Source of the DNA: Bacteroidia bacterium | Lineage (GTDB): Bacteria; Bacteroidota; Bacteroidia; UBA4408 | NCBI GenBank assembly: GCA_023262495.1 | Contig: JALRAS010000014.1 | Span: 1-39,124 of the forward strand | DNA: 39,124 bases | Reading direction: 5' to 3' | Shown: positions 5,502 to 38,983 of the stretch, piece after piece | How the letters are laid out: each line of letters starts with the position of its first letter | Position numbering within the stretch: position 1 is the first letter of the stretch | Translations under genes and position numbers: made by a program | The notes under the pieces: model-generated | Told to the model about the DNA's origin: nothing | What the model saw: only the letters and a program-made list of their open reading frames with translations | The model's database searches: none

Positions 5502-7112
5502 ATGAACAGCTTGAATTCGTATTTTTCACATCGCGCTCAGTGTCTAATTGTTTTGATGCTGATTTTTCAAGATGTGTTTGCACAACCCGAAAATTTGCCT
5601 CTTTTGCGTGAGGCCAATATTGGGATTACCAATGCCGCACGTGAAAATCCTTATCAATTTCATACTGCCATTCGCCCCTATTTAAAAAGTGAGATTCAAT
5701 CGCTCAATGGTGTCAACGAGAATGATACCGCTATGCCTTCAAGCAAAAAAATGGTATTAAGGAATTATATCAGCCAAGGTCATTTGCTTGGATTAGATGC
5801 TGGTAAATTTTTTATCAAAGCTGATCCTGTTTTTTCTGCGATTGCCGGCTATGATGCGAATGCAGGCGAACGATTAATGCAAACGTCTATTGGCTTTAGA
5901 ACACAAGTGCAACTGGGTAAAAAATTGTTTGGAGAAGTAAAAATAGAAAGTTTTAATGCCGATTATGCCAGCTATATCGACTCGGTAATTGCCAAAACAC
6001 AGGTTGTTCCGGGAGGCAACTTTGCCGGCCGAACGGGCTTGGGATACAGTAGTAATTTAAACACAGGTTATTTATCTTATTCACCCAATAAAATCTTTAA
6101 TTTTCAAGCAGGGTTCGGCAAAAATTTCTGGGGCGAGGGATATCGTTCGCTGCTGTTGAGCGACAACGCATACAGTTATCCATACCTAAAAACAACCGCA
6201 CATTTTTGGCGTATCAAGTATGTAAGTATGGTGGCTAATTTTAAAGATGTTCAAAGAGATCCTGGAAATAGCAACACATTCAGAAATAAATATGCATCGT
6301 TGCATTACCTGAGTTGGAATGCTACAAAATGGTTGAACTTTGGCCTATTTGAAGCCATAGTTTTTGAAAATAGAAACAAAGCAAGCTATCATGCCTTTGA
6401 TGTCAATTATCTTAACCCGGTTATATTTTTTCGTCCTGTAGAATACTCCCTGGGGTCGGGAGATAATGCCTTACTTGGAGCTAACTTTAAAATTAAGTTA
6501 ACTGCAAACATGCAGTTGTATGGGCAAGTCATATTAGATGAGTTTTTCTTGAAGGAGATTAGAGCAAGAAACGGTTGGCAAGACAATAAGCAAGGAGCGC
6601 AAGCCGGGTTAAAGTATTTCAATGTGGCCGGAATAAAAAATTTAAATTTTTTAACCGAGGTAAATGTGGTAAGACCCTATACATACTACCACAAGAACGC
6701 TACTCAAAACTATGGGCATTTCAATCAGCCACTTGCCCATCCATACGGAGCAAACTTTTACGAAAGTATGAGTACCCTAAACTATAAATACAAGCGGTGG
6801 TTTGTGGCTGCCAAATTTATTTATGCCGTAGTGGGTCTCGATAGTAATCAAACCATTAGCTACGGACAAGATATTTATCGTGCCTATGATCAACGCCCTT
6901 CTGTTTATGGAAACGGACTTGCACAAGGTTTAAAAACAACACTCATTTTTGCCACAGCCAAGGCATCATATTTAATTAACAGCGCCTATAATTTACGCAT
7001 CGAAGGATGTATGATCCCCCGTATTGAAAGCAATATCAACGGCACCAAAAGAGCACTTATCTTTCAGCTAGGCATCAGCACCTCTCTCGATAATAGATAC
7101 CTCGATTTTTAA
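5502..7112 (+). CDS. Wzi/RemB-like outer-membrane beta-barrel protein, paralog 2
   Basis: A 536-aa exported protein with a signal peptide ending at VFA-Q (about residue 28). It is a clear paralog of the gene at 2751-4346, sharing GEGYRSLLLSDNAYSYPYLK, HFNQPLAHPYGANF and the closing YLDF/YYDF C-terminus, so both barrels end in an aromatic residue as expected for Bam-dependent insertion. The GFGKNFWGEGYRSL stretch is characteristic of the Wzi/RemB-like family. It follows the WecA-like gene by 8 bp and is the last gene of the operon. A 7-bp-stem hairpin (AATTCGG/CCGAATT, 7111-7131) overlaps the stop codon and belongs partly to a dispersed repeat. The two barrels may handle different glycans or act together. 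Confidence 0.8.
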   Translation: MNSLNSYFSHRAQCLIVLMLIFQDVFAQPENLPLLREANIGITNAARENPYQFHTAIRPYLKSEIQSLNGVNENDTAMPSSKKMVLRNYISQGHLLGLDAGKFFIKADPVFSAIAGYDANAGERLMQTSIGFRTQVQLGKKLFGEVKIESFNADYASYIDSVIAKTQVVPGGNFAGRTGLGYSSNLNTGYLSYSPNKIFNFQAGFGKNFWGEGYRSLLLSDNAYSYPYLKTTAHFWRIKYVSMVANFKDVQRDPGNSNTFRNKYASLHYLSWNATKWLNFGLFEAIVFENRNKASYHAFDVNYLNPVIFFRPVEYSLGSGDNALLGANFKIKLTANMQLYGQVILDEFFLKEIRARNGWQDNKQGAQAGLKYFNVAGIKNLNFLTEVNVVRPYTYYHKNATQNYGHFNQPLAHPYGANFYESMSTLNYKYKRWFVAAKFIYAVVGLDSNQTISYGQDIYRAYDQRPSVYGNGLAQGLKTTLIFATAKASYLINSAYNLRIEGCMIPRIESNINGTKRALIFQLGISTSLDNRYLDF

Positions 7113-7115
7113 TTC

Positions 7116-7276
7116 GGGTTAATTCCGAATTAATCAATAGAAGTTACGAATGTAACGCACTAGTGATTTTATGAGGGCAATCCAGCTTAGCAGGTGTTTT
7201 CAATCCATTGATTCAATGGATTTAATTACAGCTGTTTCAGCGATTCCGCATTTTCTAATGCGGAATTTGGGTTAAT
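7116..7276. repeat. Dispersed hairpin-rich repeat, copy 1
   Basis: About 160 bp between two convergent genes. From 7128 to 7277 it is about 90% identical by hand alignment to 38092-38242. Internal small palindromes: GTTAC-gaat-GTAAC (7143-7156), CCaGCTtAGCaGG, CCATTGA-t-TCAATGG (7205-7219), GCTG-ttt-CAGC (7231-7241) and TTCCGCATT-ttct-AATGCGGAA. The right end AATTTGGGTTAAT is the inverse of the left end of copy 2. GGGTTAAT occurs at both ends (7116-7123 and 7269-7276). No open reading frame is present. It is MITE- or REP-like; the family is not recognised. Confidence 0.85.
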
Positions 7277-7277
7277 A

Positions 7278-8633
7278 CTACTTGGGCACTGTCAGTTGTT
7301 GCTCTGTAATCGTATAATCCCATTGTTTAACGCCTTCCCGATCATAAATTTCAAACATAACCTTTCTTTCATTTTTTGCACCGCTGATGCCAATTCTTGA
7401 ATAACTGTTACCCATGTATAAGCTGCCTTCCACACGCGTAGGGTTGTTATACTCATTTGATTTGGATATGTTATAAGCGTTAGATGTAATGGGCGATGAG
7501 GTAAAATCATGCAAATCATAAAATCCTGGTAAGCTGATTTTATGCATCTCGGTAAAATGTCGGTCACCGGTTAAAAAAATAACACCTTTAATCTTGTTTA
7601 ACCGAATAAAGTTTATCAATTCATCAAACTCCGCAGCATAGTGTCTTAAACATTCTTTCTCTGCTATTGGATTTAAAACCTGACTGCCGTTTACAATAAA
7701 TTTAAAAACAGACTTACTACTGATGAGTGCATTTTTTAACCAATCGAGTTGTGTTTTTCCATAGTAGGTTTTTTCATGATTAGGTTGGCCGTTTATACTA
7801 TCAGGCAACTCATTAGCACTTCTGTAAAAGCGATCATCCATCATGAAAAATTGAGCATCACTGTATAAGAAGCTCTGATAGATACCATCATTTCCCTTGT
7901 TGCCATAATTGCGTTGAGGGTAATATTGTTTAAATGCATGATAGGTTACATGCTTTAAATCAAAAGATAAATTGGCATCATTGGGTCCGTAATCATGGTC
8001 ATCCCAAATGGCATAGTTGGGCCTAAGTGAAAGCACACGCTGAAGCGCTTTAGTTGACCTGTCATGACTATATCGATAGGCAATACCCGAAGCACTACTG
8101 TAATCTGCTTCGCGCAAATATAGATTATCTCCGCCCCAAATATTAAAATCTGCTTCCGTATCAGCCATCTTTTCTAGGATGTTGGTACTTTGACCGTATG
8201 GTTTACCTGGCCTATCGTACAAAGAGTCGTTGATATAGGTGCACGATCCAAATAAAAATTTAAAATCTGGCGCTGGTTTTCTCCATTCCCACAATTCCTT
8301 GGTTTTAAATTCATATACCTTAGCGGCTGGCAATAGCTTGCCATCAATCAAAAATTGATACTGATAAATGGTATTCATTGCCAAATGCTCCAAAACAAAA
8401 GTGATGGGATGATAGGCTTGTTGCTGTTTTACATCACCATTAACAATGCATTTTTCCTTGTTATTTTCTTTCTTCCAATATTGAATAGCAGCACTATTTA
8501 CAGGAGCCTTCACTTCAAGCCAAACAGCTGCCTCTCGGTGTTCAACATAACCCAACATAGGCCCCGAAACAATTTGAGCGGATACCAAAAAGTAACTGAG
8601 ATTTAAAGCAACTAAAAGTATATTTCTAAACAT
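7278..8633 (-). CDS. PhoD-like alkaline phosphatase/phosphodiesterase, exported
   Basis: A 451-aa protein with a signal peptide (cleavage near VSA-Q, residue 19), an N-terminal Fn3-like PhoD domain (about 22-112) and a metallophosphatase domain. Metal-binding motifs are visible: FGSCTY (128-133), IWGGDNLYLRE (165-175), IWDDHDYGPND (209-219) and FLTGDRHFTEMH in the C-terminal third. These match PhoD enzymes, which hydrolyse phosphomonoesters or diesters in the periplasm using Fe/Ca. GGDNLYLRE is a slight variant of the more usual GGDNIYADE pattern and is common among Bacteroidota members. The gene is monocistronic and divergent from the YgiD-like gene. Its stop abuts the right end of the dispersed repeat. 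A phosphate-scavenging role is inferred; no Pho-box can be defined here. Confidence 0.88.
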   Translation of the reverse strand: MFRNILLVALNLSYFLVSAQIVSGPMLGYVEHREAAVWLEVKAPVNSAAIQYWKKENNKEKCIVNGDVKQQQAYHPITFVLEHLAMNTIYQYQFLIDGKLLPAAKVYEFKTKELWEWRKPAPDFKFLFGSCTYINDSLYDRPGKPYGQSTNILEKMADTEADFNIWGGDNLYLREADYSSASGIAYRYSHDRSTKALQRVLSLRPNYAIWDDHDYGPNDANLSFDLKHVTYHAFKQYYPQRNYGNKGNDGIYQSFLYSDAQFFMMDDRFYRSANELPDSINGQPNHEKTYYGKTQLDWLKNALISSKSVFKFIVNGSQVLNPIAEKECLRHYAAEFDELINFIRLNKIKGVIFLTGDRHFTEMHKISLPGFYDLHDFTSSPITSNAYNISKSNEYNNPTRVEGSLYMGNSYSRIGISGAKNERKVMFEIYDREGVKQWDYTITEQQLTVPK

Positions 8634-19463: not shown

Positions 19464-22400
19464 TTAAAGTTTACCTGCTAAAACAAAACTTTTCCTGATT
19501 TTTTTGGTATTGCCCTTCGTGTCAAAGTACTCAAAAAACACAGAATATACGCCTATACTGCTCTTTTCGTTACTTTCAGTGATGCCATCCCAACTAAAAA
19601 CTCCCTGTGTGCCTAGCAACTCATTATCCATAATTTTAACAATAAATCTTCCTCTTGCATCAAAAATACTTGCATTTCCAACATAGCCGGGTTCGGAAAA
19701 TAAATAATTAATGAGCAAAACATCTTGATAGCCATCATTATCAGGTGAAAATATGTCGTTGTTAAAACTTAAAACATCACTGCTTTCTGAGTCCTCCACA
19801 AATTGTGAGTTTTTGTATCCGGGCGTTGCAAATCCCACCTGTTCAGCGGCAGAATGCCAGTTTGATAAATCACTACTGCTTCTGTTAAAACTGATTCTTT
19901 CCAGAGAAACACCTTTCTTATCGGCAATCAGGGGAAAGTGCATGTCTTCGGTATACATTAAACCGTCAATTAAGCTGTCTTTATTTAAAATCAATCCGAA
20001 ACTACCTTCGCTTACATTCATACTTGGCATGTATTCAACTTGAATAAAATTATTTTCGTTGGCGGTTTTATATTGTTTTTTTACCATCTCAGTACCCTCA
20101 CTAAGCACGTAATAAGATTTTGGAAAAATGAGGTAGCCTAGAGAATCTACTGTGTATAGATTTGAAAAAGTGCGGCTTGTTGTATCTACATTGCCAATCT
20201 GCACATCATTAAAGGATAATATTTTTTCACTCTTGTTGTACACCTCGGCAAAATCAAATCCGTCTGTTTTGGGATTAAACAACAACTCATTTAAAATTAA
20301 ATCACCCTCAGCGATTTTTTCTGGAATGCCAAACTTGCCGGTAATAGTGGTGTTGATGAGATTGCCCACACAATCAATCAGATTGCCGGAAATAGTAAGT
20401 GTGTATATCTTACCTTGCTGTAAAGGGAACAAGAGATTTAGCCCTACCTTTTTAACATCAGGTAAATAAGGTACTACAAGAGATGGAGAACCTATACCAT
20501 TATCAATAATATAGGACGAAGCGTTGTAAATAGAATTGAGGTTGAGGGGCTCGGAAAAATACACCACAATATTGGTGGGATTGATATAAGCTATGCGTGA
20601 TATCTCCGGTGCTTGTGTGTCGGGGTTGGAGGCATTTATGCTGTTTGTTTTCCCGGGTGTGCCGCCTTTAACATCATTACTTGCTCTCCAATTCTCACTG
20701 CCGGCACATGGGTTAAGTGGATCAATTTGTTCAAGACTCCAGCCACCTGCTGCTTTCAATGTATTTTGATACCAATTATCGGAATAGCTTACGTTTGAAA
20801 TAATTGTACCCGATCCAGAATTAAGTGTAATCTGTGCTCCTGTGTTGGTGATTGAGGTATAATTATCGGCAATGTAATTATTTCCATATATGCTTTCATC
20901 TCCGTTGCCACTCTTTGGCAGTATAGTCAGGTATTCACCGGCTTGTATTGAGGCGCAGCCTATTTGTGATATAGTACTACCGGTTTTTATAGTATATCCG
21001 ATTAAACTGATGGGTTGTGTTGTTTTATTATACAATTCAATATATTCCGATGCAGGCAATCCAACAACAGGACTTTCATCCGCCATAATTTCATTGATAA
21101 CAATTTCATATGGCTTGGCTTGATATAAACTGAATTGTTGATTGGCATTAGAAGCAATAAGGTTACCTGCACAATCTTTAACCGTGCCGTTGATGCTGAG
21201 TGTGTATGTACTGCTATTATTAAATGATGCGCTAAAGGTGAGCACCACTTCATTATACAAAGGACCAAATAGTTGAATGCCTGAAGGTGATCCAATGCCA
21301 TTATCAATATTATATACAGCAGCGTTTAACAGCGAAATGCTGTCTTGTGGTTCAGTGAATTTTAATCTAAGTGTGTTGGGGGTTTCTATGCAAACTGCCT
21401 TGATATTAGGGGCTTTATTGTCGGGATTAGATGCTGCAATACTATTGCTGCTTCCGGGTGTTCCGCCCGTTGCACTGTTAGAAGCAAGCCAATTATTTTT
21501 TCCTGCACATGGATTAGTAACATCAATTTGTTCTAAACTATAACCACCATCTGCTTTGTTTGCATCGCCATACCAGGTATCAGTATAGTTTACAGCGTGA
21601 ATTACTCTGCCAAGGGTATCGGTAATAATCAAATTTGTTCCTGAGTTGGTAATTGAGCTAGAGGAAAGTCCATCAACCACCAAGGTTTTACCATAGCTTT
21701 GTAGTGAGGAAAGAGCACCTGCAGCGCAAAGAATTACATATTCACCGGGATTGATGGTTGCCGATGGTAAAAGTTTAAATGAACTGCCATATTTTAAACG
21801 CCACTTGCCTAAATTAATTGGAAATAGTGTGCGATTGTATAACTCTACATACTCGTATGATGGCAAACCAACTGTGGGATCAGGATCGGCCATAATTTCG
21901 TTAATCACTACATCAAAAGCTTTTGCATTATAATTAGAAAAATTAGCAGATAGCGAATTGACACTATTGTTTCCCGCACAATCTGTTATGGTTGCCGTAA
22001 GTGTTAAGGTGTAAATTACATTCAGTTGTAAAGCATTGGATAGCGAGAGGATGGCCTTGTTTGCAGGACTCCCCGAAAAGGTAACAAGCGCGGGAATACC
22101 TATACCATTGTTAATGGTGAATTGAGAAGCATTGATAGAAGCCCCATTTACAATAGGTTCAGAAAACGTTACCTCAATTTGATTGCTATTGATGATGCTG
22201 ATACTGCCTAGCTGTGGAGAAACTATATCGGGATTGGGTCCAAATACAGAATTTTTTCTGCCCGGACTCCCTCCATCGGGATTGTTTGATGCAGTCCAAT
22301 TATTGTTGGCAGCGCAAGGGTTCAACGGATCAATCATTTCCAACGACCAACCTCCGGCCGCCTTTGAAGCATCATTGTACCATTGATCGCTGTAGGTAAC

Positions 22401-24491
22401 TTCATGTATTAACTGCCCATTGTTATCTTTGATGCGCAAGGTGGTGCCCGAATTGGTAATGGCTGTAGAACTCAAACTTGTGACAGCAACTACATTGCCA
22501 TATATGCTCATATCGTTGAAGGCAGCAGACGTTGTAATCACTAGAAAGCTGTCGGGTGGAATTACTGCATTAGGAAAATTTCTGATTGTTGTGCCATGCT
22601 CAAAAGTCCAACCTGCGGTACTGATACTGTAATTGGTGGTATTATAAAATTCAACATACTCGGCATCGGGTAATCCAACAATTGGTGAAGGATCGGCCAT
22701 TATTTCGTTGATGACCACATCATAAGGTTGTGGTAAAAAATAGTTGAATGTAACTGAATTAGGATTGAGCAAATTGCCCGAACAGTCACTGAGTCCTGTG
22801 CAGGTGAGTGTGTAATTGATTCCTGCCTGCAGGCTGCTCGAAAGAGTTAATGTTACACAGTTGGCATCTATACTAACAAGTGTGGGTGTACCAATGCCAT
22901 TACTAATTGTGAAATTTGACGCAAGCAACAATAATGGATTGATAGGTTCTGAAAAACAAACTTTGAGTATGGTTGCAGCCGGATTTTCAGTGCTGATAAT
23001 TTGTGGTGAAACAACATCGGGCGTACCGTTAAATACTGAATTTACTTGTCCGGGTGTGCCTCCCGAAGGATGATTACTCGCCAACCAATTTCCACCTCCG
23101 GCACAACCGCTTTCTATGGTCGGATTGATTAACTCAAGAGTCCAGCCTCCTGCTGCCTTTACTGCATCTTGATACCAAGTATCAGCATAGCTCACACTAT
23201 CGATAAAACTACCATTGTTGTTTTTCAAATAAAGTACATCTGCAGCATTGTTCAACGATGGCCATGATGTTACACCAACCACCGTGCCGAATGATTGGAA
23301 TAATGATGTATCTGCATTGGCACACAATATCACGTATTCACCGGGTAGGATGGTATGATTTCCTATAGTGCCATTTGTTCCTGGATCACTTATTTCCCAA
23401 CCGCTAATGTCGATGGGATTGCCCGACCTGTTGAATATTTCTACAAACTCTGCATTCGGCAAACCTACGATAGGTGTTTGATCGGCATAAATTTCGTTGA
23501 TGATAACATCTCTGTAAAGTGCAGAAACTGGCACTGTATAATTGAAATTGGTATTACTTCCTGCCGAAATAGTGTTTCCTGCAATATCTTGAATATTGTT
23601 TGCGCTAAGTGTGTAATTGCTACTGTTAATCAAACTATTGGAAAGTGCTAAATGAACTAGCGAAAAATTAACGGCATCGCGTGTTGCAGTGCTTATCGTG
23701 ATACCATTATTGATATTGTAGTTGCCAATATTTTCGCACGTTGATGAACTTACGGCTTCACTGAAAGTAACATCCACATTCAATGCATTGATAGCCGTTG
23801 CAGCAATAAGTTGAGGTGGTGTTGTATCAACAACTATTGGTCCTGCTTGGATATCATCAAAAAAATGTTTTTGAAAAAAAGATGCCGTTGATTGCACAAT
23901 TGAAAATCCAAAAAAGCCACCTGTTAATACCGTAGCATCGTTCACTAAACCTTCGTTGGTATAAGTACTTCCCGTGCCACTCATGTCTCGTTCAAGTGTC
24001 CAGTCATTGCCCGCAGTCCTTGTTACCTTAATTTTTATGTTGTTGTTCGAGAAGTTGGTAATACCATCTACACCATCAATAATTTTGGTATTAGTGCCTG
24101 ACACTCTTCTGTACAAACAAATATCATCCTGGGTACTCCCAATCCTTACAAAATAGCCACTCGATGAAGCCGATTGCAAATTTGCATCAGTGGATGTAAG
24201 AAACACATCTGTATAATTCAAACCTGAGGTGTTGAATTGTAGGTTTACAAAAAACTCCCACTGACAATCATTAATCAAGGTGCTTGGTGTGGAAAGATAA
24301 TAGCTGCTGTTAGGGATATTTTTGTTGGAACGAAGCTTGTTGTTACCACTCAAAGGGGCAATAACAAATACCGAGTCATCGCCTGTCCACTGCGGATTAG
24401 CTGTGAAATTGCCATCGTCAAACTGATCAGTTAACTGCGCCTGAGCGCACAGAAAAAAAGTCAGTTGAAGAAAAATTAAAATATATTTCAT
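19464..24491 (-). CDS. Giant exported lamin-tail-domain repeat protein
   Basis: A 1675-aa exported protein with signal peptide MKYILIFLQLTFFLCAQAQ. The N-terminal third (20-215) looks like a jelly-roll or lectin-like sandwich. Four tandem units of about 265-269 residues follow, plus a fifth divergent unit. Each full unit has a lamin tail domain starting with VINEIMADPSPIVGLPDAEY-type sequence (residues about 330, 593, 862, 1131 and 1397) and ends WSLEQIDPLNPCAG..NW.ASN..GGTPG. An Ig-like/SbsA-type module with FSEPI and NNGIGSPS follows. The last 115 residues (FSPDNDGYQDVLLINYLFSE, IFDARGRFIVKIMDNELLG, KSFVLAGKL) form a FlgD-like or T9SS-type end domain. An AGGAG lies 4 bp before the ATG, unusual in this phylum. 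The function is unknown; a surface filament, adhesin or nuclease-associated scaffold is possible. Confidence 0.9.
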   Translation of the reverse strand: MKYILIFLQLTFFLCAQAQLTDQFDDGNFTANPQWTGDDSVFVIAPLSGNNKLRSNKNIPNSSYYLSTPSTLINDCQWEFFVNLQFNTSGLNYTDVFLTSTDANLQSASSSGYFVRIGSTQDDICLYRRVSGTNTKIIDGVDGITNFSNNNIKIKVTRTAGNDWTLERDMSGTGSTYTNEGLVNDATVLTGGFFGFSIVQSTASFFQKHFFDDIQAGPIVVDTTPPQLIAATAINALNVDVTFSEAVSSSTCENIGNYNINNGITISTATRDAVNFSLVHLALSNSLINSSNYTLSANNIQDIAGNTISAGSNTNFNYTVPVSALYRDVIINEIYADQTPIVGLPNAEFVEIFNRSGNPIDISGWEISDPGTNGTIGNHTILPGEYVILCANADTSLFQSFGTVVGVTSWPSLNNAADVLYLKNNNGSFIDSVSYADTWYQDAVKAAGGWTLELINPTIESGCAGGGNWLASNHPSGGTPGQVNSVFNGTPDVVSPQIISTENPAATILKVCFSEPINPLLLLASNFTISNGIGTPTLVSIDANCVTLTLSSSLQAGINYTLTCTGLSDCSGNLLNPNSVTFNYFLPQPYDVVINEIMADPSPIVGLPDAEYVEFYNTTNYSISTAGWTFEHGTTIRNFPNAVIPPDSFLVITTSAAFNDMSIYGNVVAVTSLSSTAITNSGTTLRIKDNNGQLIHEVTYSDQWYNDASKAAGGWSLEMIDPLNPCAANNNWTASNNPDGGSPGRKNSVFGPNPDIVSPQLGSISIINSNQIEVTFSEPIVNGASINASQFTINNGIGIPALVTFSGSPANKAILSLSNALQLNVIYTLTLTATITDCAGNNSVNSLSANFSNYNAKAFDVVINEIMADPDPTVGLPSYEYVELYNRTLFPINLGKWRLKYGSSFKLLPSATINPGEYVILCAAGALSSLQSYGKTLVVDGLSSSSITNSGTNLIITDTLGRVIHAVNYTDTWYGDANKADGGYSLEQIDVTNPCAGKNNWLASNSATGGTPGSSNSIAASNPDNKAPNIKAVCIETPNTLRLKFTEPQDSISLLNAAVYNIDNGIGSPSGIQLFGPLYNEVVLTFSASFNNSSTYTLSINGTVKDCAGNLIASNANQQFSLYQAKPYEIVINEIMADESPVVGLPASEYIELYNKTTQPISLIGYTIKTGSTISQIGCASIQAGEYLTILPKSGNGDESIYGNNYIADNYTSITNTGAQITLNSGSGTIISNVSYSDNWYQNTLKAAGGWSLEQIDPLNPCAGSENWRASNDVKGGTPGKTNSINASNPDTQAPEISRIAYINPTNIVVYFSEPLNLNSIYNASSYIIDNGIGSPSLVVPYLPDVKKVGLNLLFPLQQGKIYTLTISGNLIDCVGNLINTTITGKFGIPEKIAEGDLILNELLFNPKTDGFDFAEVYNKSEKILSFNDVQIGNVDTTSRTFSNLYTVDSLGYLIFPKSYYVLSEGTEMVKKQYKTANENNFIQVEYMPSMNVSEGSFGLILNKDSLIDGLMYTEDMHFPLIADKKGVSLERISFNRSSSDLSNWHSAAEQVGFATPGYKNSQFVEDSESSDVLSFNNDIFSPDNDGYQDVLLINYLFSEPGYVGNASIFDARGRFIVKIMDNELLGTQGVFSWDGITESNEKSSIGVYSVFFEYFDTKGNTKKIRKSFVLAGKL
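19827..23510 (-). repeat. Tandem coding repeats (lamin tail + Ig-like units)
   Basis: Five units inside the 1675-aa gene begin near 23504, 22715, 21908, 21101 and 20303, intervals of about 790-807 bp. The conserved start of each LTD is INEI.AD..P.VGLP..E..E.YN. The fifth unit is divergent (LILNELLFNPKTDGFDFAEVYN). Similarity is at protein level; the DNA copies have diverged, so this is an old expansion rather than recent duplication. Confidence 0.85.
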
Positions 24492-37963: not shown

Positions 37964-38082
37964 CTATTTTATCCTTTTGCAGCGAATAGTTTTGATACTC
38001 CAATGAAACTATTGATTGAATGATAGCTATTTTAGATATGCTGTATTTTCTAAATTATTATTTAGGTTGAATCAACTACCCA
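37964..38082. other. Intergenic spacer without recognisable gene
   Basis: AT-rich spacer between the NUMOD4 gene end and repeat copy 2. All frames carry frequent stops. I see no promoter, terminator or repeat in it. Confidence 0.5.
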
Positions 38083-38240
38083 ATTAACCCTAATTAATCA
38101 ATAGAAGTTACGGATGTAACGCACTTGTGATTTAATGAGGGTAATTCCGCTTAGCAGGTGTTTTCAATCCATTGAATCAATGTTTTGAATTATAGCTGTT
38201 TCAGCGATTCCGCATTTCTAATGCGGAATTTAGGATTAAT
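38083..38240. repeat. Dispersed hairpin-rich repeat, copy 2
   Basis: 158 bp with imperfect terminal inverted repeats: ATTAACCCTAATT (38083-38095) against ATTAATCCTAAAT read inward from 38240 (11 of 13 match). The interior matches copy 1 at about 90%. It keeps GTTAC-ggat-GTAAC, CATTGA-a-TCAATG, GCTG-ttt-CAGC and TTCCGCATT-tct-AATGCGGAA; most differences fall in loops. It lies directly upstream of the apaG promoter region. No ORF. Confidence 0.87.
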
Positions 38241-38800: not shown

Positions 38801-38821
38801 TGCTCGGCCAAATTTGCTCAT

Positions 38822-38852
38822 AAAAAAAGCTGCCTGTTTTCCAACAGACAGC
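38822..38852 (-). terminator. Rho-independent terminator for the minus-strand gene at the window end
   Basis: On the minus strand a 10-bp stem with one mismatch (GCTGTCTGTT / AACAGGCAGC, loop GGAA) is followed by seven T. It lies about 125 bp after the stop of the partial CDS at 38978. Confidence 0.8.
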
Positions 38853-38888
38853 CCAAACAAATGATCAACCTAATCTGATCAAACTTAA

Positions 38889-38983
38889 TCTCGCACAGCA
38901 GTTATTTGAAATCTATTAATTCAATGATTGAACTATATCTTTCTGGCGATTTCACATTTCTGAACGCGGAATACGAGTTAATT
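38889..38983. repeat. Dispersed repeat, copy 3 (decayed right half)
   Basis: Roughly two-thirds identical by hand to the right 95 bp of copies 1 and 2. Shared pieces include AGCAG, ATTCAATG, GGCGATT, CATTTCT, GCGGAAT and the end GTTAAT. The palindromes are no longer intact and the left half is absent. The stop codon of the minus-strand gene (38978-38980) lies inside its right end. Confidence 0.65.

Follow-up and report, generated by a model that had tools for sequence, protein, structure and literature searches.

The dispersed repeat of the window, i.e. the 39,124-nucleotide stretch of a Bacteroidia contig (JALRAS010000014.1) that was analysed, is very probably a MITE of the IS1380 type, as judged from its sequence. 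The element is 148 bp long (CCCGAATTAATCA...GCGGAATTTGGG, running from CCC to GGG), and its terminal inverted repeats read CCCRAATT...AATTTGGG. A first-pass annotation of this DNA had reported two dispersed copies of about 90% identity, and both are present, with 90% identity over 153 bp; two decayed copies that it had missed lie in the same window (Table 1). The inverted ends it described are real, except that the outer TTAA/ATTAA, which had been counted in, is target-site duplication lying outside the true ends CCC...GGG; the absence of an ORF from the element was confirmed.

Copy 1 lies where two convergent genes (5502-7112, + strand; 7278-8633, - strand) end, and fills the gap between their stop codons (7112-7278) almost exactly; the right-hand gene is PhoD-like. 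A further feature of the window is a gene at 19464-24491 for a 1675-residue protein with lamin-tail and Big_5 domains and a weak C-terminal match to CHU_C (type IX secretion).

Table 1. Copies of the putative MITE in the window, with their domains and target-site duplications
Feature	Coordinates	Strand	Remarks
Full copy 1	7124..7271	+	Covariance-model score 172.3 bits
Copy 1, left target-site duplication	7119..7123	+	TTAAT
Copy 1, right target-site duplication	7272..7276	+	TTAAT
Full copy 2	38088..38234	+	CCCTAATT...AATTTAGG; covariance-model score 152.7 bits; identity to best other copies about 90%
Copy 2, left target-site duplication	38083..38087	+	ATTAA; exact match to the right one
Copy 2, right target-site duplication	38235..38239	+	ATTAA
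Copy 2, domain D1	38088..38141	+	Left transposon end, hairpin GTTAC/GTAAC, stem AATCA/TGATT; closed by CCC/GGG; covariation in helices 2-3
Copy 2, domain D2	38148..38206	+	Long imperfect hairpin CGCTTAGCAGGTG...TTATAGCTGTTTCAGCG
Copy 2, domain D3	38207..38234	+	Hairpin ATTCCGCATTTCTAATGCGGAAT and right transposon end; last ~20 bp are an IS1380-type terminal repeat
Decayed older copy	37996..38075	+	D2-D3 part recognisable; directly upstream of copy 2; profile match 37996-38053, the rest by reading the sequence; 3' limit approximate
Decayed copy downstream of apaG	38817..38977	+	Covariance model 21.7 bits, E=0.001; nhmmer E=3e-10 over 38886-38980

The own genome (G000) is a draft of 3.0 Mb in 273 contigs, in which about 45 matches were found at the DNA level, roughly 25-30 of them near full length, and 67 with a covariance model, decayed copies included. 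Extending this model to relatives, as had been proposed, revealed further carriers: 41 matches were obtained in the congener G001 (CAMBZU01, a MAG labelled Chitinophaga pinensis), 24 in G395, 10 in G048, 8 in G135, and 1-3 in each of five others. By covariance model and DNA pattern together, the carriers comprise G395 (JAGPCI01), G048, G135, G076, G017 (JAIXWD01), G337, CALPIR02 and CANLLM01; nine or more Bacteroidota genomes besides G000 have sister families. The family of G001 is such a sister family, with about 68% identity to that of G000, and its copies are near-identical to each other at different sites, which suggests a recent movement or burst. The congeners G002 and G003 yielded no covariance-model matches, and of 396 genomes sampled evenly over the phylum only the own genome was positive, which indicates a patchy family. 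Neither viral contigs (pattern search) nor plasmids (blastn) gave a match, i.e. no sign of carriage by phage or plasmid was seen in them. Left ends seen on their own in G000, with no complete element attached, were checked as candidate autonomous partners and proved to be degenerate or truncated copies, with no interior of transposon size.

Compound structures were also observed. A second dispersed family (ends ATACC...GGTAT(TA)), itself repeated, is inserted in the hairpins of the element in several genomes (L235, 305-470; L118, L130, L132 and L149 in G048; the junction of L115). In G135 (L075, L081, L090), one copy seemingly sits inside another, in the loop of its hairpin 1, with the flanks CATTATAGGAGTCC...GGACGAACTAGAATG, and related compounds of this kind occur at three places.

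The target-site duplications, another check that had been proposed, were examined on 76 non-redundant copies by comparing 5 bp on each side. Perfect 5-bp direct repeats flank 47 of the 76 copies (12.8 expected), and 332 of 380 flank positions match directly (274.6 expected, z = 11.1); no excess was found in this set at offsets shifted by one base or in the inverted comparison. The target consensus is W-T-N-A-W. Inverted flank matches, hinted at by two IS copies, were rejected on the full copy set. The copies are intergenic: none of the 63 examined for their context lies inside a long ORF, and copies in divergent intergenic regions are rarer than those in convergent ones (3:14), as would be expected from a loss of insertions near promoters. 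For the window copies, no orthologous empty site was obtained, the neighbourhood in G001 being not conserved; at the PhoD locus, synteny is lost.

The palindromes and the dispersal between genes would also suit a REP/REPIN-like element moved by a RAYT (Y1) transposase, one of the options of the first-pass annotation. This origin is contradicted by the 5-bp duplication and by DDE-type terminal repeats common to IS1380, and to our knowledge REPs leave no target duplication; we regard it as scarcely credible.

CC ends and a 5-bp AT-rich duplication are hallmarks of the IS1380 family, which was guessed first on these grounds; IS1380 elements with matching ends were then found (L238, L239, L242, L246). 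The congener G002 contains an intact IS1380 element of 1399 bp, bounded by CCCAAATTACGCAGTTG...CAACTGCGGAATTTGGG and flanked by the 5-bp duplication TTTAA; its terminal repeats (CCCAAATTMCGCAGTTGAATA) match at 20 of 21 positions, and its 12-bp end GCGGAATTTGGG is the right end of the G000 family. The right end of the G001 mini-element agrees at 20/20, 19/20 and 19/20 positions with IS1380 elements in G105, G022 and G162, respectively, the 20-bp identity being to the G105 end TTTCTAATGCGTAATCTGGG. The match is poorer at the left end, where CCCAAATTATGCAATAGGAA of the IS1380 elements and CCCAAATTAATCAATAGGAG of the mini-element share 17 of 20 positions. Some of the IS1380 insertions (L239, L242) have flanks without a direct repeat. 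Relatives of the G002 transposase occur in 37 of 395 genomes of the class, and IS1380 fragments that have these ends lie in two carriers, G337 and G076. G076 also harbours a different mini-element of 262 bp (L101, 1220-1490), with IS1380-type ends and a TTTAA duplication, that splits an IS1380 gene; an IS1380 gene of G337 displays the matching uninterrupted (empty) site.

The transposase with matching ends that had been suggested as a search target was thus found in other genomes, but not in G000: the PF13701 profile gave no match in the drafts of G000, G001 and G048, which are many-copy carriers. Repeats may be missing from these drafts, or the source may have died out there; MITEs often outlive their autonomous source. 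A partner in the same genome is usual for a MITE, not required, and its absence does not exclude the membership. Transposases of the PF01609 (IS4/IS5) type were considered as candidates and rejected; the three matches, in two of four carriers, have ends that do not match, and one, in G001, has its own distinct repeat (ACCTGAGTTCGA).

The first-pass annotation had held that ends matching a known insertion sequence would make the repeat just an IS remnant. The ends do match those of IS1380, as expected of internally deleted copies without an independent life; the interior, however, has nothing detectable in common with the IS1380 elements beyond the ~20 bp at each end, so the element is not a simple remnant. 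A constant architecture of ~148 bp, in tens of copies and several genera, also argues against mere remnants, which we consider very unlikely.

For the IS1380-type MITE, we propose that the DDE transposase of an IS1380-family IS acts in trans on the ends of the element (right-hand partner ...CTAATGCGGAATTTGGG); the presumed mover of the 148-bp element is an IS1380-family transposase with CCCAAATTAYGCA ends, and that such a transposase does the moving we infer from the shared ends. Insertion at W-T-N-A-W would generate the 5-bp target duplication, and copies would build up in intergenic regions and decay later. The interior has no IS origin and consists of three hairpin domains of its own, which have stayed recognisable across several genera.

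The consensus folds at -59 kcal/mol into this three-domain hairpin array, and intact members of the subfamilies adopt the same fold. In D1, a stem CCCAA.../...TTGGG encloses AATCAATAG/CTA-TTGATT and a short hairpin, which is GTTAC/GTAAC, GATTT/AAATC, GGATT/AATCC or GACAT/ATGTC according to subfamily; D1 is followed by a junction with a possible extra hairpin, the long imperfect hairpin D2, and D3, which includes the right transposon end. The chain of hairpins noticed earlier is borne out, and covariation supports the helices that hold the palindromes listed for it. In a covariance-model alignment, which is biased to structure and covers 18 subfamily representatives and one reverse-strand row, 36 of 54 pairs show two-sided changes (covariation 0.365 versus 0.138 shuffled). 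Given this bias, a plain MAFFT alignment unfitted to structure was counted as well, with two-sided changes in 28 of 49 pairs (0.248 versus 0.140 shuffled); with the partners slid, the covariation was 0.05-0.12. RNAalifold predicted no structure on the sequence-only alignment, presumably due to misaligned hairpins; the named structure, when counted there, did show covariation. That differences between copies tend to fall in loops holds weakly, since substitutions among the own-genome copies affect 7.9% of stem versus 13.3% of loop positions, and those in loops are partly subfamily polymorphisms.

A structured RNA had likewise been offered as an explanation, and the conservation of the fold, as evident from covariation, upholds this part of the suggestion, whereas nothing indicates that the element acts as an RNA. 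If it were a structured non-coding RNA family spread by transposition, its folded transcript would be under selection, e.g. as a regulator, as a stabiliser of transcripts or for tolerance of the insertion. In agreement with this, most helices display two-sided changes across genera, an unpaired RA/GMA loop in D1 is conserved between covarying helices, and the fold of the + strand is more stable than that of the complement (-62.6 versus -53.4 kcal/mol). RNA made from one strand would, however, favour G-U over A-C mismatches, and the two types are balanced, at 25 versus 24 among variable pairs and 47 versus 51 within copies, i.e. without a strand preference. An apparent G-U excess on counting by cells (45:26) vanished when independent pair types were counted. 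The orientation of copies relative to genes in tandem pairs is random as well (17 same, 20 opposite), no match to Rfam, not even a weak one, was obtained at gathering and permissive thresholds, and no terminator was found at the element. We therefore regard selection on a folded transcript as possible though doubtful, and view as rather unlikely the related idea of an uncatalogued structured RNA domain with a function useful to element or host, for which IS1380 transposases would serve as the vehicle.

The fold could alternatively be kept at the DNA level, through single-stranded or cruciform hairpins that are corrected by template switching, or through hairpins that aid the transposase, and we give this explanation a little less than an even chance. 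Template switching can yield compensatory changes without selection, so the covariation is explicable without an RNA function. In six copies, the 5' arm of D2 now reads as the reverse complement of the 3' arm, and in one copy it is the 3' arm that has been rewritten in this way, a pattern that resembles the outcome of template switching at DNA hairpins; the symmetric mismatch counts are in line with such a process, as are the extra hairpins inserted where D1 meets D2 in G048, G395 and a single G001 copy. The arm-rewritten copies are L008 (1503-1657), L047, L050, L054, L220, L221 and L052, several of which are truncated just past the switch. Templated correction should, on the other hand, remove mismatched loops, and those of D1 and D2 persist in most subfamilies, including the D1 internal loop (RA opposite GMA) flanked by changing helices; furthermore, we know of no need of DDE transposases for internal hairpins. 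On balance, DNA-level causes are somewhat favoured over an RNA function as the reason for the conserved fold, which may benefit the element rather than be a by-product of hairpin-templated mutation.

As a rule, MITEs do not last long and stay within a single lineage, and one multi-hairpin architecture that persists across genera despite sequence divergence is unusual for a MITE. The element can show whether the folds of bacterial MITEs are selected or are by-products of hairpin-templated mutation, and it ties a MITE family to IS1380 and supplies an exact rule for insertion (5 bp, W-T-N-A-W). No IS1380-derived MITE like it was found in the literature searched, i.e. papers available without subscription, among them a 2024 review on MITEs of prokaryotes in which IS1380 goes unmentioned; as far as this literature goes, the IS1380 assignment, the insertion rule and the persistence of the fold across genera are new.

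Among known systems, the IS1380 family (PF13701 transposase), of which ISEcp1 is an example, is alike in the terminal ~20 bp, the CC(C) ends and the 5-bp AT-rich target duplication, whereas the element described here has no transposase and an unrelated interior of ~110 bp. Correia elements and ERIC have different ends, and their target duplication is TA instead of 5 bp. These elements are likewise small and intergenic, and once transcribed they form folded RNAs that RNase III or RNase E cleaves (PMC10969869). Closest, by description, is bcr1 (Bacillus cereus repeat, group A), which is of similar size, high in copy number, intergenic and described as MITE-like (PMC3446304), and whose mobility has been connected with a TTTAT motif of 5 bp (PMC6542083); it belongs, however, to a different phylum, and its mobility is described only as possibly resembling site-specific recombination. 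The BrickBuilt/MITE293 elements of Porphyromonas gingivalis are also MITEs of Bacteroidota; unlike in the element here, their ends are IS5-like (GAGACCTTTGCA) and their interior contains tandem repeats (PMC4596501). MITEs with foldable transcripts are already known, i.e. Correia, ERIC, QMITE2 and bcr1 (PMC10969869, PMC3446304, PMC6542083), and the present element is a structured MITE of a known sort, comparable to bcr1, Correia and ERIC, rather than a new class.
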